Below are positions 16,958 to 54,958 of a DNA stretch of 64,000 nt, piece after piece (position 1 is the stretch's first letter; the number at the start of each line of letters is the position of its first letter). The DNA lies in the NCBI RefSeq assembly GCF_000421465.1, contig NZ_ATXB01000001.1, forward strand, positions 1,178,001-1,242,000, in the 5' to 3' direction. Source of the stretch: Methylohalobius crimeensis 10Ki. GTDB taxonomy: Bacteria; Pseudomonadota; Gammaproteobacteria; Methylococcales; Methylothermaceae. Below the pieces are notes generated by a model. It saw only the letters and a program-made list of their open reading frames with translations, was not told the origin of the DNA and ran no database searches. Position numbers and translations under genes: made by a program.

Positions 16958-17806
16958 TTAATCCCGGTTATTCAGCTCAAATCGCCGCACCGCACGGCTC
17001 ACCGTCATATAATGCACCCCGAAATACGCACCGATTTCAGCCATGGTGTAAGCGCCGGACAGATAGGCCCGGGCCATCGCCTCATGTCTGTTCCGATAGC
17101 GTTTTCGATAGTCGTCCAGGGAAAGGGCGACGGCGCGCCGCTGCGCCTTGGGAACTTCCCGGAGTGCTTCCGGCGTTTTGTCTTGCCGGTGCCGTGCCAC
17201 GAATCCATCATCCCCCAGCAACAATTGATGTCGGGTCTGGTCCAGTGGGCTGGACAGCCCCTGGCCTTCCATGACGAATCGGCGGTAGGCTTCGATTGCG
17301 CTTTTCCGTTTCTTGCCAAACTGGCCGAGGAGTCCATCCCTATCCAGCCACGCCGGCGCCTTCGCTTCGCCGATCATCGACCGATGGCTGCTCCAGGGCC
17401 AATCTTCCGGTTGTTCCACCAGATGGGCTCTGAGCGGATTCAACACGACATAGCGGGCCAGTTCCAGCAAGTAAGTTTCCTTCTGCACCAGGATTGCCTG
17501 GTAACGCCCTTGAAATAGATGACCCACCAGGCCGTGGCGACGATTAAAACGCTGCGTATAGACGCCGTTCAACTGCCGCATGCCTTTGGACAGGTGTCCA
17601 TCGACCGTTTCCACCACCAAGTGATAGTGGTTGGTCATCTGGCAATACGCATGCACTACCCAGTTGAAGCGGGCGCAGACATGGCCCAGGATTTCCAGCC
17701 ATGCCAGCCTGTCCTCATCGTCCAGATAGATGTCCTCGCGCCGGTCTCCTCTCGAGGTCACATGGTAGACGGCACCCGCAAATTCCAATCGTAAAGGTCT
17801 AGCCAT
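16958..17806 (-). CDS. REP-associated tyrosine transposase (RAYT), Y1 family
   Basis: 282 residues. N-terminal Y1 (IS200-like) domain: ARPLRLEFAGAVYHVTSRGDRRE, the histidine pair in MTNHYHLVVET, and a catalytic Tyr region GRYQAILVQKETYLLELARYVVLNPLRA. A C-terminal helix-turn-helix (TMAEIGAYFGVHYMTVSRAVRRFE) follows. These enzymes cut short palindromic REP elements. The ATG at 17806 begins the usual MARPLR start; a longer frame runs into the flanking repeats. Flanked by a perfect 19-base inverted repeat. Confidence 0.9.
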   Translation of the reverse strand: MARPLRLEFAGAVYHVTSRGDRREDIYLDDEDRLAWLEILGHVCARFNWVVHAYCQMTNHYHLVVETVDGHLSKGMRQLNGVYTQRFNRRHGLVGHLFQGRYQAILVQKETYLLELARYVVLNPLRAHLVEQPEDWPWSSHRSMIGEAKAPAWLDRDGLLGQFGKKRKSAIEAYRRFVMEGQGLSSPLDQTRHQLLLGDDGFVARHRQDKTPEALREVPKAQRRAVALSLDDYRKRYRNRHEAMARAYLSGAYTMAEIGAYFGVHYMTVSRAVRRFELNNRD

Positions 17807-22711: not shown

Positions 22712-22807
22712 GGGTCAGAGTAATATTTATGCCTTTATTTAAATTATTAGTACTCTGACCCCAATTATTTGACCCCAATTATTCTAGTACTCTGACCCCA
22801 ATTATTC
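22712..22807. repeat. REP-like repeat, copy A
   Basis: GGTCAGAGTAATATTTATGCC, an A+T-rich centre, then TTATTAGTACTCTGACCCC and two more CTGACCCCAATTATT-type modules. The outer arms are imperfectly inverted. A close relative sits at 29157-29248. Here the repeat lies between a transposase remnant and the truncated attC of cassette 2. Confidence 0.8.
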
Positions 22808-29156: not shown

Positions 29157-29248
29157 GGGATCAGAGTAATATTTATGCCCTTACATAAATTATTGGTACT
29201 CTGACCCCAATTATTCTGACCCCAATTATTCTCTGACCCCAATTATTC
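29157..29248. repeat. REP-like repeat, copy B
   Basis: GGATCAGAGTAATATTTATGCC, an A+T-rich centre, TTATTGGTACTCTGACCCC and two further CTGACCCCAATTATTC modules. Close relative of copy A at 22712-22807. It joins the cut end of the intron to the cut attC of cassette 1. Confidence 0.8.
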
Positions 29249-32190: not shown

Positions 32191-32904
32191 ATGGATCTGA
32201 TCACAATCGCCGGCGACCTTTCCGCGTCCGTCGGAAAACTGAAATTCGGCCCGCCCGTCTTCCACGTCTACAACCCCCTGAACTACGCCTGGCAGTCCCA
32301 CCGGACTTACCTGGAGCGCTACGGCGGGGGCGGCCGGGAAATCGTCTTGGTGGGAATGAATCCGGGGCCGTGGGGCATGGTTCAGACCGGCGTGCCGTTC
32401 GGGGACGTGGTGATGGTGCGCGATTGGCTGGGTATCCACGCGCAAATAAAACGCCCCGCCAAGGAGCATCCCGCCCGGCCCATCCAAGGGTTCGACTGCC
32501 GCCGCCGGGAGGTGAGCGGCAAGCGGCTGTGGGGCTGGGCCAGGGCAACTTACGGCACGCCGGAGCGGTTCTTCGACCGCTTTTTCGTGTTCAACTACTG
32601 CCCCTTGGCGTTCATGGAGGAAAGCGGACGCAATCTCACTCCCGACCGGCTGCCGGCGGAGATGCGGGAGCCCTTGCTCGAACGGTGCGATGCGTCGCTC
32701 AAAAAGGTGGTGGAACGCCTCGAGCCGCGCTATGTCCTGGGCGTGGGGCGATTCGCCGAGCGCCGCGTGAACGCCGCCTTGGCCGACATGGATCTGACTA
32801 CCGGCATGGTGCCCCATCCCAGCCCGGCCAATCCCGCCGCCAACCAGGGCTGGGGGGAGGCGATGAACCGGGCCTTGGCGGCAGCGGGCATTCAATTGCC
32901 TTAG
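32191..32904 (+). CDS. SMUG-type uracil-DNA glycosylase family protein
   Basis: 237 residues. Active-site region LVGMNPGPWGMVQTGVPFGDVVMVRDWLGI (Asn in the GMNPGP motif) and the DNA-binding motif in MVPHPSPANPAANQGW (HPSPANP) are those of SMUG1-like glycosylases, which remove uracil or related bases from DNA. FVFNYCPLAFME is the central strand. It starts 43 bases after intI on the same strand, with ATG at 32191. Probably host core, not a cassette. Confidence 0.85.
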   Translation: MDLITIAGDLSASVGKLKFGPPVFHVYNPLNYAWQSHRTYLERYGGGGREIVLVGMNPGPWGMVQTGVPFGDVVMVRDWLGIHAQIKRPAKEHPARPIQGFDCRRREVSGKRLWGWARATYGTPERFFDRFFVFNYCPLAFMEESGRNLTPDRLPAEMREPLLERCDASLKKVVERLEPRYVLGVGRFAERRVNAALADMDLTTGMVPHPSPANPAANQGWGEAMNRALAAAGIQLP

Positions 32905-33037
32905 CGGAAACGGCAAGGCCGCAACTTCCGCAAAACTCGACAGTCTCAGAGTCTGATTCAAAACTTGTGTGAGAGGCCGGGTGGTCGCAATTGCCATTAT
33001 CTTCCTATCCGGTTGGCGAAGGTGTGGCAAAAGCTCT

Positions 33038-33120
33038 CTCTCCCGCGGGCGGGAGAGGGTGGGGTGAGGATGGTTTAAATCCACCCTCTTCCTAACCTTC
33101 TCCCTCCAAGAGGGAGAAGG
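33038..33120. repeat. Interspersed palindromic repeat, two hairpins
   Basis: Hairpin 1: CTCTCCCGC-GG-GCGGGAGAG (33038-33057). Hairpin 2: CCTTCTCCCTC-CAA-GAGGGAGAAGG (33096-33120). The last 40 bases (33081-33120) recur exactly, inverted, at 37684-37723. It probably belongs to a genome-wide family. Confidence 0.85.
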
Positions 33121-33211: not shown

Positions 33212-33277
33212 GTCGTAATGAGTATTACGACGGCGAAAGCGCTATTCTTGACCGTAATGGTCGGGTAAAGGGATAAT
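33212..33277 (+). promoter_or_regulatory. erpA promoter with upstream palindrome
   Basis: TTGACC (33248-33253), 18 bases, GATAAT (33272-33277) form a plausible sigma70 promoter 29 bases before the erpA ATG. Just upstream is GTCGTAAT-GAGT-ATTACGAC (33212-33231), a perfect eight-base inverted repeat suited to a dimeric regulator. The regulator is not known. Confidence 0.5.
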
Positions 33278-36374: not shown

Positions 36375-37595
36375 ATGAACGAACCGCAAGCGGCATTGGC
36401 CGAATTCAAGCGCGGCACCGAGGAAGTGCTGCTGGAAAAAGAATTGCGGGAACGGCTCGACTCGGGGGGCTCGCTGAAAGTCAAAGCCGGTTTCGACCCC
36501 ACCGCCCCGGATCTGCACTTGGGGCATACGGTATTGCTGAACAAACTCAAGCACTTCCAGGACCGGGGCCACGAGGCGATCTTTTTGATCGGCGATTTTA
36601 CCGCCATGATCGGCGATCCCAGCGGCAAAAGCCAGACCCGCCCGCCCTTGACCCGGGACGAGGTCATCGAAAACGCCCGCACCTACGAGGAGCAGATTTT
36701 CAAAATCCTCGATCCGGAAAAAACCCTGCTGGTGTTCAATTCCAGCTGGATGAGCGGAATGGACGCAGCCGAGCTGATCCAATTGGCGGGTAAATACACC
36801 GTGGCGCGGATGCTGGAGCGCGACGATTTCAGCAAGCGCTATCGAAGTGGCCAGTCGATCGCCATCCACGAGTTCCTCTATCCCCTGATCCAAGGCTACG
36901 ACTCGGTCGCCCTGAAGGCGGACGTGGAGCTGGGCGGCACCGACCAGAAATTCAACCTGCTGGTGGGCCGGCATCTGCAGGAAATCTATGGCCAGAAGCC
37001 GCAGGTGGTGATCACCCTGCCGATTCTGGAGGGCTTGGACGGGGTGCAGAAAATGTCCAAGTCCCTGGGCAACTATATCGGCATCAACGAGCCGCCGGAC
37101 GAGATGTTCGGCAAGTTGATGTCGATCTCCGACGAGTTGATGTGGCGCTACTTCGAATTGTTGAGCTTCCGCCCCCTGGAGGAAATCGGCGCTTGGCAAA
37201 AAGCCTGCGAGACGGGGGCCAACCCGCGCGACTACAAGGTTCGATTGGCATTGGAGATCGTCACCCGCTTCCACGACCAGGCGGCCGCCCAAAAAGCCCT
37301 GGAAAATTTCGAAAGCCGCTTCAAGCGCGGTCTTTTGCCGGAGGATTTGGAGCTGCAGCGGCTCCCGGCACCCGACCCGAAAGGCTATCCCATCGGCCGC
37401 CTGCTCAAGGACGCCGGCTTGGTGAAGAGCACTTCCGAGGCGCTGCGCATGATCAAGCAGGGCGCGGTGAGAATCGACGGGGAACGGGTGTCCGATCCGG
37501 GGCGCATGATTCCGGCAGGGGAAACCCATGTCTTTCAGGTGGGCAAGCGCCGCTTCGCCAAAATCGAGGTGGGCTTTATGAATCTGGCGGAGTGA
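36375..37595 (+). CDS. tyrS: Tyrosyl-tRNA synthetase
   Basis: 406 residues. Class I synthetase: HIGH-type motif in [13 protein letters not shown], tyrosine pocket region in [21 protein letters not shown] in [13 protein letters not shown], and a C-terminal S4 RNA-binding domain ([30 protein letters not shown]). The form is that of TyrRS type 2 (TyrZ-like), usual in many beta- and gammaproteobacteria. The ATG at 36375 follows GGGAGATGGAAG. Confidence 0.95.
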
Positions 37596-37898
37596 TCTCC
37601 GATCGTTTGATTTAAAATCGGACATGCCGTGCAAGCCTATGGGCACAACAACGCCCTCAATGCTCTCTTCGTTTAACAACGTACCTTCTCCCTCTTGGAG
37701 GGAGAAGGTTAGGAAGAGGGTGGATCTAATTGACATGAAAGTCATTTTATTAAACCCTCCTCTCTCCAACCCTCTCCCGCCAGCGGAAGAGGGTGTTTTT
37801 GCGATAATTGAAGGGGGAGATATGCGCATTTGCGATCACCTTCTAAGGAAGCGCGGAAAGACGGCATCTCGGATTGTCGACTGACTAAGGGAGGCATC
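37596..37898. other. Intergenic region between tyrS and the phosphohexomutase
   Basis: About 300 bases, largely taken up by the inverted copy of the palindromic repeat (37684-37796). The ribosome site AAGGGAGG at 37886-37893 belongs to the next gene. No small gene seen. Confidence 0.6.
37684..37796. repeat. Interspersed palindromic repeat, inverted copy
   Basis: Hairpin CCTTCTCCCTC-TTG-GAGGGAGAAGG (37684-37708) followed by TTAGGAAGAGGGTGG, the exact inverse of 33081-33120. A second imperfect hairpin CCCTCTCCCGC...GCGGAAGAGGG lies at about 37770-37794. Confidence 0.85.
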
Positions 37899-49607: not shown

Positions 49608-49761
49608 GGTAGTTCTCCTTGGCGTTTTTCTTTTCTATTTCTATTTCGACCGTTTGAGCAAACGATGACTTGCCCATTATCGCAAAACTGGCGTCAAAAA
49701 TTGAGACGATTTCTCCCTTCGAGCATGATAAAGTTGAATGTATTTTGAACATCTGCGAGTT

Positions 49762-52700
49762 ATGCATACGAATCCGTCCTTCGAATCCAGTGCCCGAATC
49801 AAACGGCTGCTTGCCGAACGCATTCTGATTTTGGACAGTGCCATGGGCACCATGATCCAAAACCGTCGCTTGTCGGAGGCCGATTACCGCGGTCAGCGTT
49901 TCCGCGATTGGCCCTCCGATCTGCAAGGCAATAACGATTTGTTGTCCCTGACCCAGCCTCGATTCATCGAGGAAATCCATCGCGAGAATCTCGACGCCGG
50001 CGCGGATATCATCGAAACCAATACCTTCAACGCCAACCGGATCAGTCTGGCCGATTACGGCATGGAGGATCTGGCCGGGGAGATCAACCGGGAAGCCGCC
50101 GCCATCGCCCGCCGCGCCGCCGATGCCGCCACCGCCCGCACGCCGGACAAACCCCGCCTGGTGACCGGCGTGCTGGGTCCGACCAATCGCACCGCCTCCA
50201 TTTCCCCCGACGTCAACGATCCCGGTTACCGCAACATTACCTTTGAGCAGTTGGTGGCGGCTTACACCGAGGCCGTCGACGGTCTGGTGGCCGGGGGCGC
50301 GGATCTGCTGTTGATCGAAACCATTTTCGACACCCTCAACGCCAAGGCCGCGATCTTCGCGGTCAAGCAATATTTCGAGCGGCACGGCGGGCAGTTGCCG
50401 ATCATGATCTCCGGCACCATCACCGATGCTTCCGGACGCACCTTGTCCGGCCAGACCGCCGAAGCCTTCTGGAATTCCCTGCGCCACGCCCGGCCCATTT
50501 CCTTCGGTTTCAACTGCGCGCTGGGTCCCAAGGAACTGCGTCAATACATTGAGGAAATAGCCGGTTATGTCGACACGCACGTGTCGGCCCATCCCAACGC
50601 CGGTCTTCCCAACGAATTCGGCGAGTACGACGAGACCCCCGAAGATATGGCGGTCCACATCCGGGAGTGGGCGCGAAGCGGTTTTCTCAATATCGTCGGC
50701 GGTTGTTGCGGCACCACGCCCGAGCATATCCGCGCCATCGCCGAGGCGGTGGAAGGGGTTGCGCCACGCCGAATCCCCAAGGCCGGACACGCTTGCCGCC
50801 TGGCCGGCTTGGAGCCGCTCAATATCGTTTCCCCCTCCCATCCCTCCCCCGCAAGCGGGGGAGGAGAAATTACGAAGACTCCCTCCCCCGCAAACGGGGG
50901 AGGAGAAATTGCGATGATTCCCTCCCCCGCGAGCGGGGGAGGGGCAGGGTGGGGGTTTATCAACATCGGTGAGCGCACCAACGTGACCGGATCCGCCCGC
51001 TTCCGACGCCTGATCCGGGAAGACGACTACGACACCGCGCTGGAAGTGGCCAGGCAACAGGTGGAAAACGGCGCCCAGCTGATCGACGTCAACATGGACG
51101 AGGGGATGCTCGATTCCGAGGCGGCGATGGTGCGTTTTTTGAACCTGGCGGCCGGCGAGCCCGACATCGCCCGGGTGCCGGTGATGATCGACTCGTCCAA
51201 ATGGGCGGTGATCGAAGCCGGTCTCCAGTGCATCCAGGGCAAGGGGGTGATCAACTCCATCTCCCTCAAGGAGGGCGAGGCCGCGTTTCTCGAGCACGCC
51301 CGGCTGGCACGCCGCTACGGCGCGGCGGTGGTGGTGATGGCCTTCGACGAGACCGGCCAGGCCGACAGCAAGCAGCGCAAAGTGGAAATCTGCACCCGCG
51401 CCTACAAGCTGCTGCGGGAAAAGCTGGATTTTCCGCCCGAGGAAATCATCTTCGATCCCAATATCTTCGCGGTGGCCACCGGCATTCCCGAGCATCACCG
51501 CTACGGCCTCGACTATTTGGAGGCGGTGGCCGAGATCAAGCGGACGCTTCCCCACGCCCTGACTTCCGGCGGGGTTTCCAACGTGTCGTTCTCGTTTCGC
51601 GGCAACAACTATGTCCGCGAGGCGATCCATGCGGTCTTCCTCTATCACGCGATCAAGGAAGGGCTCGACATGGGCATCGTCAATGCCGGTCAGCTGGGCA
51701 TCTACGAAGAAGTCCCCGGGGATCTGCGCGACGCCATCGAAGACGTCCTTTTGTGCCGACGCGAAAACGCCGACGAATACTTGCTGGAAGTGGCGGAAAA
51801 GTACCGCGGCGAAGGGGCGGCCCAGGCCAAGGAGGATTTGGAATGGCGCACCTGGCCCGTGGAGAAGCGCCTGGAGCACGCCCTGGTCAAAGGGATCACC
51901 GACTACATCGACGAGGACACCGAGGAAGCCCGCCAAGATCTGGGCAATCCCCTCAGGGTGATCGAAGGACCGCTGATGGCCGGAATGAACGTGGTCGGCG
52001 ACCTGTTCGGGGCCGGCAAGATGTTTTTGCCCCAGGTGGTCAAATCGGCGCGGGTGATGAAAAAGGCGGTGGCTTACTTGATGCCGTATCTCGACGCCGA
52101 GCGTCAAGCGGGCGAAACCGCGGGCAGGATCCTCATGGCCACGGTCAAGGGAGACGTGCATGACATCGGCAAGAACATTGTCGGCGTGGTGCTGCAGTGC
52201 AACGGCTTCGAGGTGGTCGATCTAGGGGTGATGGTGCCGGCCGATCAAATCCTTCAAACCGCCCGGGAAAAAAAGGTCGATATCATCGGCTTGTCGGGCC
52301 TGATCACGCCTTCCTTGGACGAAATGGTCCACGTGGCCAAGGAAATGAAGCGCCAGGGTTTCGAAATTCCCTTGCTGATCGGCGGCGCCACCACTTCCCG
52401 GGTGCATACCGCGGTCAAGATCGCCCCCCATTACTCAAAGCCTGTGGTCTACGTTTCCGACGCCTCGCGGGCGGTCGGGGTGGCCGGTAACCTGTTGAGT
52501 AAGGATCTACGCACCGCCTATGTGGAGAGCCTGGCGCAGGAATACGAGGAAGTGCGCCGCCGCCACGCCATGAAGCAGGATCGGACACGTCTATTGTCCA
52601 TCGAAGCGGCTCGGAACAATCGCTATCGGGATACTTGGGCCGACTACGAGCCGCCGCCGCCGATCGAGGCAGGGCTGCAAGTGTTCGACGACTACCCCTT

Positions 52701-53580
52701 GGACGAATTGACCCGTTATATCGACTGGTCGCCGTTCTTCCAGGCGTGGGAGTTGGCCGGAAGCTACCCCAAAATCCTCGAAGACGAGGTGGTCGGCGAG
52801 GAGGCCAGAAGGCTTTTCGCCGACGCCCGTCAAATGCTGGAGCAGCTGGTGGCGGAAAAATGGCTCGAGGCGCGGGGGGTGATCGGCCTGTTCCCGGCGG
52901 CGAGCCGCGGCGACGATATTGTGATCTACACCGACGAAAGCCGCCGAGAGGTTCGAACCGTTTTGCACCATTTGCGCCAGCAGCATCAAAAACCCCAAGG
53001 CCAGCCCAATTACTGTCTGGCCGATTACGTCGCCCCGGAAGCGGCGGACCGAGCCGACTGGATCGGAGCCTTCGCCGTCACTGCCGGGATCGGCATCGAG
53101 CCGCATCTGGAACGATTCGAAAAAGATCACGACGACTACCGCGCGATCATGCTGAAAGCTTTGGCCGATCGCCTCGCCGAAGCCTTCGCCGAACACCTTC
53201 ACCAACGGGTGCGGCGGGAATTCTGGGGCTATGCGGCGGATGAAAACTGGGCCAACGCCGATCTGATCGCCGAAAAGTATCGAGGTATCCGCCCGGCGCC
53301 GGGGTATCCGGCGTGCCCCGATCACACCGAAAAGCATACTTTATTCGATCTGATCTCACCCGAAGAAAACGCCGGGATCGAATTGACCGAAAGCTTCGCC
53401 ATGTACCCGGCGGCGGCGGTCAGCGGGTGGTATTTCTCTCACCCTCGAGCGAGTTACTTCAACGTGGGCAAGATCGGCCGCGACCAGGTGGAAGACTACG
53501 CCCGCCGCAAGGGCGTGTCGACAGAGCAGGTGGAAAAGTGGCTGGCGCCCAATTTGGCCTATACTCCCGAGAACGATTAA
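49762..53580 (+). CDS. metH: Cobalamin-dependent methionine synthase with in-frame repeat insertion
   Basis: 1,272 residues; the E. coli enzyme has 1,227. Domains in order: homocysteine-binding ([12 protein letters not shown]; zinc Cys in [10 protein letters not shown]), pterin-binding ([17 protein letters not shown]), B12 cap, B12-binding with axial His in [10 protein letters not shown] near residue 799, and the AdoMet activation domain ([28 protein letters not shown]). Residues about 361-395 are a foreign-looking Pro-Ser-Gly stretch made of a 13-residue unit repeated three times, in the linker before the pterin domain. An ATG 24 bases upstream (49738) is an alternative start. Confidence 0.95.
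50842..50957. repeat. Three 39-base palindromic units in frame inside metH
   Basis: CCCTCCCCCGC-(A/G)A-(A/G)CGGGGGAGG-type hairpins begin at 50842, 50881 and 50920. The period of 39 bases is exactly 13 codons, so the frame is kept. Encoded units begin [20 protein letters not shown] and [10 protein letters not shown]. The style matches interspersed palindromes elsewhere in the window. Confidence 0.9.
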
Positions 53581-54517: not shown

Positions 54518-54958
54518 ATGATTAAACAAACACTGACAGTGGCCGGCTTGGCTGTCGGTTTGTCTTTGTCCGTCGGGTCCACGCCCGTGCAGGCACAGGA
54601 GGAACCGATTTACGGCAGTCAACTCATGACGGAACAAGAAAGGAATGAAATGCGGGCCAAAATGCGGGCCGCGCAAAGCGCCGAGGAAATGGAGCGCATC
54701 CGTCGGGAGCATCATGAGCAAATGCAGCAGCGCGCCAAGGAGCAGGGCGTGACGTTGCCGGATGAACCCCCCGCTAGAGGCCAAGGCGGCATGGGCCAAG
54801 GCCGAGGCGGTATGGGCCAAGGCCGAGGCGGTATGGGCCAAGGCCGAGGCGGTATGGGCCAAGGCCGAGGCGGTATGGGCCAAGGCGGCATGGGTCAAGG
54901 CGGCATGGGTCAAGGCGGCATGGGTCAAGGCGGCATGGAACCTAATCAGAGCGAATAA
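54518..54958 (+). CDS. Secreted low-complexity protein with GQGRGGM repeats
   Basis: 146 residues. Signal peptide ending STPVQAQ, then a charged helical part (MTEQERNEMRAKMRAAQSAEEMERIRREHHEQM) and a C-terminal half of pure repeats: GQGGM, four GQGRGGM and four GQGGM. GCGAGGAGG ribosome site. The N-terminal helix has the look of small periplasmic proteins whose function is unknown to me. Confidence 0.75.
   Translation: MIKQTLTVAGLAVGLSLSVGSTPVQAQEEPIYGSQLMTEQERNEMRAKMRAAQSAEEMERIRREHHEQMQQRAKEQGVTLPDEPPARGQGGMGQGRGGMGQGRGGMGQGRGGMGQGRGGMGQGGMGQGGMGQGGMGQGGMEPNQSE
54779..54937. repeat. Minisatellite of 21- and 15-base units
   Basis: 159 bases coding the repeat tail of the previous gene: one 15-base unit, four near-identical 21-base units (GGCCAAGGCCGAGGCGGTATG) less one base each counted, then four 15-base units. 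All unit lengths are multiples of three, so unit number can change without frameshift. Confidence 0.85.

Follow-up and report, generated by a model that had tools for sequence, protein, structure and literature searches.

The palindromic array in metH

The stretch of DNA analyzed here (hereafter the window) comprises 64,000 nucleotides of the Methylohalobius crimeensis genome and includes metH, the gene for cobalamin-dependent methionine synthase, which contains a bracketed array of three hairpins. The features of the window that are relevant to our analysis are as follows (window coordinates, strand, description).

49738-53580, + strand: metH, cobalamin-dependent methionine synthase, 1280 aa, frame unbroken (open reading frame list, translation, NCBIfam)
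50827-50955, + strand: extra coding stretch in metH, 43 residues (364-406), by alignment; all 8 readable congeners have 5
50831-50839, + strand: left outer arm of the metH element, CCCCCTCCC
50843-50864, + strand: hairpin 1, CCTCCCCCGCAAGCGGGGGAGG
50865-50881, + strand: spacer 1
50882-50903, + strand: hairpin 2, CCTCCCCCGCAAACGGGGGAGG
50904-50920, + strand: spacer 2
50921-50942, + strand: hairpin 3, CCTCCCCCGCGAGCGGGGGAGG
50947-50955, + strand: right outer arm of the metH element, GGGTGGGGG
33036-33059, no strand assigned: palindrome of the related CCCTCTCCC type, between an open reading frame ending at 32904 and one starting at 33276
37770-37793, no strand assigned: palindrome of the related CCCTCTCCC type, between an open reading frame ending at 37595 and one starting at 37830
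about 17447-17770, - strand: match to a Y1-type transposase (PF01797), one of 7 in the genome

The encoded protein scores 2163 bits against the NCBIfam MetH model, for which the cut-off is 1497. A repeat scan delineated three tandem 39-nt units within the gene (50841-50879, 50880-50918 and 50919-50957; TRF score 169), each holding one GC-rich 22-nt hairpin, and thereby bears out the in-frame palindromic array reported in a preliminary description of this DNA. Units 1 and 2 are identical at 35 of 39 bases (90%), while unit 3 shares 27 of 39 bases with unit 1 overall, and 23 of the first 24. In an inverted-repeat scan the outer arms, CCCCCTCCC and GGGTGGGGG, show complementarity at 8 of 9 bases, so that the whole can be viewed as a single 125-nt element with several hairpins inside a bracket. 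Only four of the six frames of the insert are open, the coding frame included.

The palindrome pattern matched the window 5 times, 3 of these in metH, versus a mean of 0.02 matches in 100 dinucleotide-shuffled versions. The palindromes near 33.1 and 37.7 kb are intergenic, as previously described, but they proved to be of a related, non-identical type (CCCTCTCCC..GGGAGAGGG). Other repeats observed in the window include clustered TGACCCCAATTATT-type repeats (22756-22806 and 29199-29248) and a tandem repeat at 54778-54938 that encodes a Gly/Met/Gln-rich array.

To place the insert in the protein, we used an AlphaFold model of MetH residues 1-700, predicted with 44 relatives. The model has a mean pLDDT of 86.1, with 473 of the 700 residues at 90 or above, and superimposes on the N-terminal half of human MTR with an rmsd of 1.9 Å and a TM-score of 0.97 by target length. 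Values below 50 are found at residues 1-11, 368-404 and 693-700, making 368-404 the sole internal segment of this kind. The model sets the insert in the loop between a strand at 360-364 and the folate-domain strand at 408-411; as a prediction, it is no proof that the protein itself adopts this fold. The low pLDDT of residues 368-404 also agrees with the flexible loop that had been proposed, and in this model the insert is probably a disordered loop rich in Pro, Ser and Gly.

The preliminary description had suggested aligning metH from close relatives to determine whether the stretch is absent from them, and we find that it is. Nine congeners were searched; the linker could be read in 8, the ninth (G005) yielding only the C-terminal part. 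In all 8 readable congeners LNI and F[VI]N[VI]GERTN are separated by five residues, so that the 43 residues of the M. crimeensis protein represent a net gain of 38 codons; one alignment (L023) places the gap differently, with the same net gain. Overall, none of the 88 other MetH loci we examined carries the stretch, these being the 8 congeners and 80 named loci (the best 80 of 594 relatives listed, and thus not a full census). The nearest loci within this best 80 of 594 are mainly gammaproteobacterial and not from Rickettsia. A short linker was found in 84 of the 88 loci, 79 of which share one constant length by pattern while 5 were assigned via local alignment. In the other 4, all from Alteromonadales (Bowmanella, L083; Pseudoalteromonas, L093 and L102; Paraglaciecola, L104), metH is divided into two frames with the break at the insertion point: the first frame stops shortly past GLE, and the second begins just ahead of the folate-domain strand. 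Judged from their sequences, these split genes suggest that both halves can be retained when the chain is broken at this junction. Roseobacters also have a split methionine synthase, which was dropped as evidence on this junction, as PMC12478193 calls it separately evolved. In a separate observation, the metH match in a Rubrobacteraceae metagenome-assembled genome (L075, 4001-9570) spans 5.57 kb versus the usual ~3.7 kb, which may reflect an insert or duplication elsewhere in the gene.

Related palindromes across the genome and in other conserved genes

In the 3.51-Mb M. crimeensis genome we counted 49 matches to the core pattern CCTCYCCC-N2..14-GGGRGAGG, compared to 0 for a reversed-pattern control. 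These represent 48 distinct hairpins, as two matches in trpE overlap. The palindromes occur both outside and inside genes, and 16 of the 49 matches (15 hairpins) lie within eight genes. Across ten members of the genus, the number of matches is 49, 30, 23, 22, 4, 2, 1 and three zeros; the control gave one match each in G008 and G009, and the single core match of G009 may be due to chance. The exact metH-type core was found nowhere else in the M. crimeensis genome by sequence and pattern search, the nearest sequence being a mixed copy at C2:425902 (82% over 38 nt), and among 369 genomes of the class (a sample without congeners) the metH-type spacer motif occurred only in metH itself. The donor of the metH element was therefore not seen in these searches.

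The main family of palindromes, family B, has an orientation and takes the form CCCCCCACCCAACCCTCCCCCC-NNN-GGGGGGAGGGC-N-AGGGAGGGGGG. We collected 27 records of this family, 26 from M. crimeensis (one pair overlapping) and 1 from G006. Clean arms could be delimited in 16 of these, with lengths of 48 nt (6 records), 49 nt (5), 47 nt (2), 50 nt (2) and 46 nt (1), which places the unit near 16 codons, yet without a fixed length. The 48-nt consensus is open in all six frames; a search of plasmids with the 48-nt element gave no match. Some copies (L128, L135, L137, L143 and L153) sit at the tip of a larger hairpin, the outer stems of which vary between copies but by eye stay complementary. A looser genome search (family-B core with up to 3 mismatches) returned 37 matches per strand versus 8 for the reversed control, indicating that the degenerate copies are partly chance; this search also flagged a second site in an lhr-like gene at C1:2321601.

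The metH stretch shares the family-B plan, with three hairpins, and a bracket enclosing a hairpin recurs at 21 further pattern matches in M. crimeensis (22 counting metH). A bracket with one hairpin was detected in 4 of 120 genomes of the phylum, M. crimeensis included. Of 9 sites inspected in the 3 other genomes, two have stop-to-stop frames (310 and 155 codons) running across the element, which were unconvincing by eye. A two-hairpin form is present in two replicons of Azospirillum (29-55% of the query covered); it lies inside the same outer arms, CCCCCTCCC..GGGTGGGGG, that enclose three hairpins in metH. One of these copies (H1) is located between two annotated genes, and the record of the other (H2) carries no annotation. 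Within the genus, the metH-type core CCTCCCCCGCAAGCGGGGGAGG is also found in G002 (L154) as part of a MITE-like element. This element ends in CTGATGTTACGCAC..GTGCGTAACATCAG, ends that the metH insert does not have, although the core is common to both.

Six of the eight palindrome-bearing genes are named by NCBIfam above curated cut-offs: trpE, purL, pgeF, flgJ, stp1 and metH. A seventh encodes an Lhr-like helicase (hereafter Lhr), which scores below the NCBIfam cut-offs only and whose frame runs into the edge of the locus. No NCBIfam model matched the eighth, Y122. We compared the seven proteins other than MetH with 9 congeners by joining protein pieces, dropping genomes without a match to the gene from each count. 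In every congener counted, the match breaks off near the palindrome and restarts beyond it for TrpE (8/8), PurL (9/9 at each of two sites), PgeF (8/8), Stp1 (7/7) and Y122 (7/7), though the match edges differ by some residues and the second PurL piece of one congener begins 13 residues earlier. Residue-level alignment gives insert lengths of 35 residues in TrpE, 39 and 33 in PurL, 38 in PgeF, 64 in Stp1 and 50 in Y122. Together with metH, these clean in-frame inserts absent from congeners account for 12 of the 15 hairpins.

The remaining 3 hairpins, in FlgJ, Lhr and the third palindrome of Y122, are weaker cases, all in variable stretches. The FlgJ palindrome sits in a variable linker, the third Y122 palindrome yields a net gain of only about 4-10 residues, and long variable linkers are also present in 4 of the 7 congeners aligned for Lhr. 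One congener Lhr linker (L169, the lhr gene of G001) encodes GRREPFPGG, as does an arm of the Stp1 element, and the Lhr linker may have received insertions repeatedly; another stretch of 22 residues in Lhr is not palindromic in appearance. Eight other loci (L113, L114, L131, L138, L142, L143, L150 and L152) were excluded from the intragenic count, either because the palindrome lies close to the end of a gene or because the frame had not been compared with relatives. As inserts were looked for among open frames, insertions that break a frame would escape, and the in-frame rate itself proves nothing.

Origin of the metH insert

Several observations bear on the origin of the insert: the relatives examined lack it, it adds exactly 38 codons and leaves the frame open, palindromes occur elsewhere in the genome, and other genes carry in-frame inserts. 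We consider it likely, with a probability of roughly 0.8, that the insert is a miniature palindromic repeat element, consisting of a bracket and three tandem hairpins, that is tolerated as a disordered loop. The element would have entered metH in the M. crimeensis lineage, after its split from the sampled congeners, and would belong to the C/G-rich palindromes that are scattered genome-wide, outside genes and repeatedly inside conserved ones. It presumably moved or was copied as DNA, and insertions that broke the frame or the core fold would have been lost. This one may have survived because it is stop-free in the metH frame and would form a loop where the chain can be interrupted. For the enzyme, the consequences are most likely neutral or slightly harmful. 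Against this reading, neither an empty site in a close strain nor a target-site duplication was seen, the sampled relatives being too distant for a duplication to be read; the donor was not seen either, and two of the six frames of the insert are closed. A RAYT was considered as the mobilizer: Y1_Tnp genes are present, with 7 matches in the genome, but no core palindrome was found at 3 of these loci that were examined, nor near the one in the window.

An alternative is that the insert is adaptive, serving as a functional linker or as an mRNA structure that tunes MetH synthesis. The RNA of the insert folds at -97.4 kcal/mol (z -8.3), but this stability follows from the palindromes themselves. 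The insert is also close to the junction of two domains that are reported in PMC10567725 to move as a rigid body, and it probably lies just past the "zip". On the other hand, similar inserts in unrelated enzymes argue for tolerance, and no relative examined carries the stretch, making an adaptive role very unlikely. Local expansion of the native linker by slippage or tandem duplication, with no inserted element, could produce tandem units as similar as 1 and 2, and is in keeping with the whole unit being found nowhere else in the genome. However, the 5-residue linker of the congeners encodes nothing palindrome-like, and the recurrence of the bracket with a hairpin elsewhere in the genome, as well as the two-hairpin form in Azospirillum, point away from a purely local origin, which we regard as highly improbable. 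Slippage may nevertheless account for the increase from one hairpin to three.

The preliminary description had the array in an enzyme of an essential pathway. While the array is indeed in MetH, the genome also encodes a full-length MetE of 785 aa (C1:988371-990620), so that MetH need not be essential, and the insert is perhaps more easily tolerated as a result. MetE scores above the cut-off in 9 of the 10 genus genomes. That MetH is itself decaying, with the insert tolerated in a protein that no longer matters, is hardly credible given the unbroken frame and the score far over the family cut-off, a pN/pS of 0.18-0.27 versus congeners (though most of this divergence may predate the insertion), the 7 congeners in which an open MetH frame of 1221 aa or more persists alongside a MetE that scores above the cut-off, and the inserts of the same kind in PurL and TrpE, which the presence of MetE leaves unexplained.

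Relation to known intragenic palindromes

The best-known cases of palindromic inserts read in frame within conserved proteins come from Rickettsia. The Rickettsia palindromic elements (RPE; Ogata 2000, 2002, via the review PMC2229807) form long stem-loops and occur both between genes and in frame within 19 Rickettsia reading frames. The resemblance to RPE noted in the preliminary description holds in behavior, as palindromes of the same type are found between genes and in frame within conserved proteins of M. crimeensis. The elements described here are, unlike RPE, C/G-rich and bracketed. RPE measure 105-146 bp (PMC2229807), compared to 125 nt for the metH element and 46-50 nt for most clean single-hairpin copies. 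With regard to function, a guanylate kinase with an in-frame insert of a small element is described as active, with changed substrate affinity (Delihas 2007, PMC2229807).

In-frame palindromes have already been published outside Rickettsia. PMC3733652 describes intragenic GTAG/CGTC REPs from several free-living bacteria, Thioalkalivibrio and Opitutus among them, that are read in frame as part of conserved proteins; more than half are in dimers or groups, clusters encode up to 43-82 residues, and its authors propose that they form flexible linkers or loops. Membership of family B in this class was ruled out, as GTAG was present in 0 and CGTC in 2 of the 27 records when searched in a span reaching 8 nt beyond and 4 nt within the assumed ends. 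Classes of untagged palindromic repeats are mentioned in PMC3733652, while a search of the open-licence literature returned no prior report of this untagged family. The kind of insert is thus known; what sets the present case apart is the palindrome family, how many conserved enzymes are involved, and the bracketed form with several hairpins.

Since congeners lack the well-aligned inserts, the 15 hairpins in eight genes, several of them encoding biosynthetic enzymes, provide pairs of orthologues that differ in the insert and can be used to study the conversion of such DNA into protein. In four Alteromonadales loci metH is divided at this very position, which opens the tolerance of the junction to direct testing. 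A broader possibility, which at present we view as unlikely, is that in this lineage an untagged palindrome family compatible with protein coding (open in six frames, with about 48 nt corresponding to 16 codons) keeps supplying disordered linkers to conserved enzymes. If true, repeat mobility would continually provide a bacterium other than Rickettsia with new protein segments.
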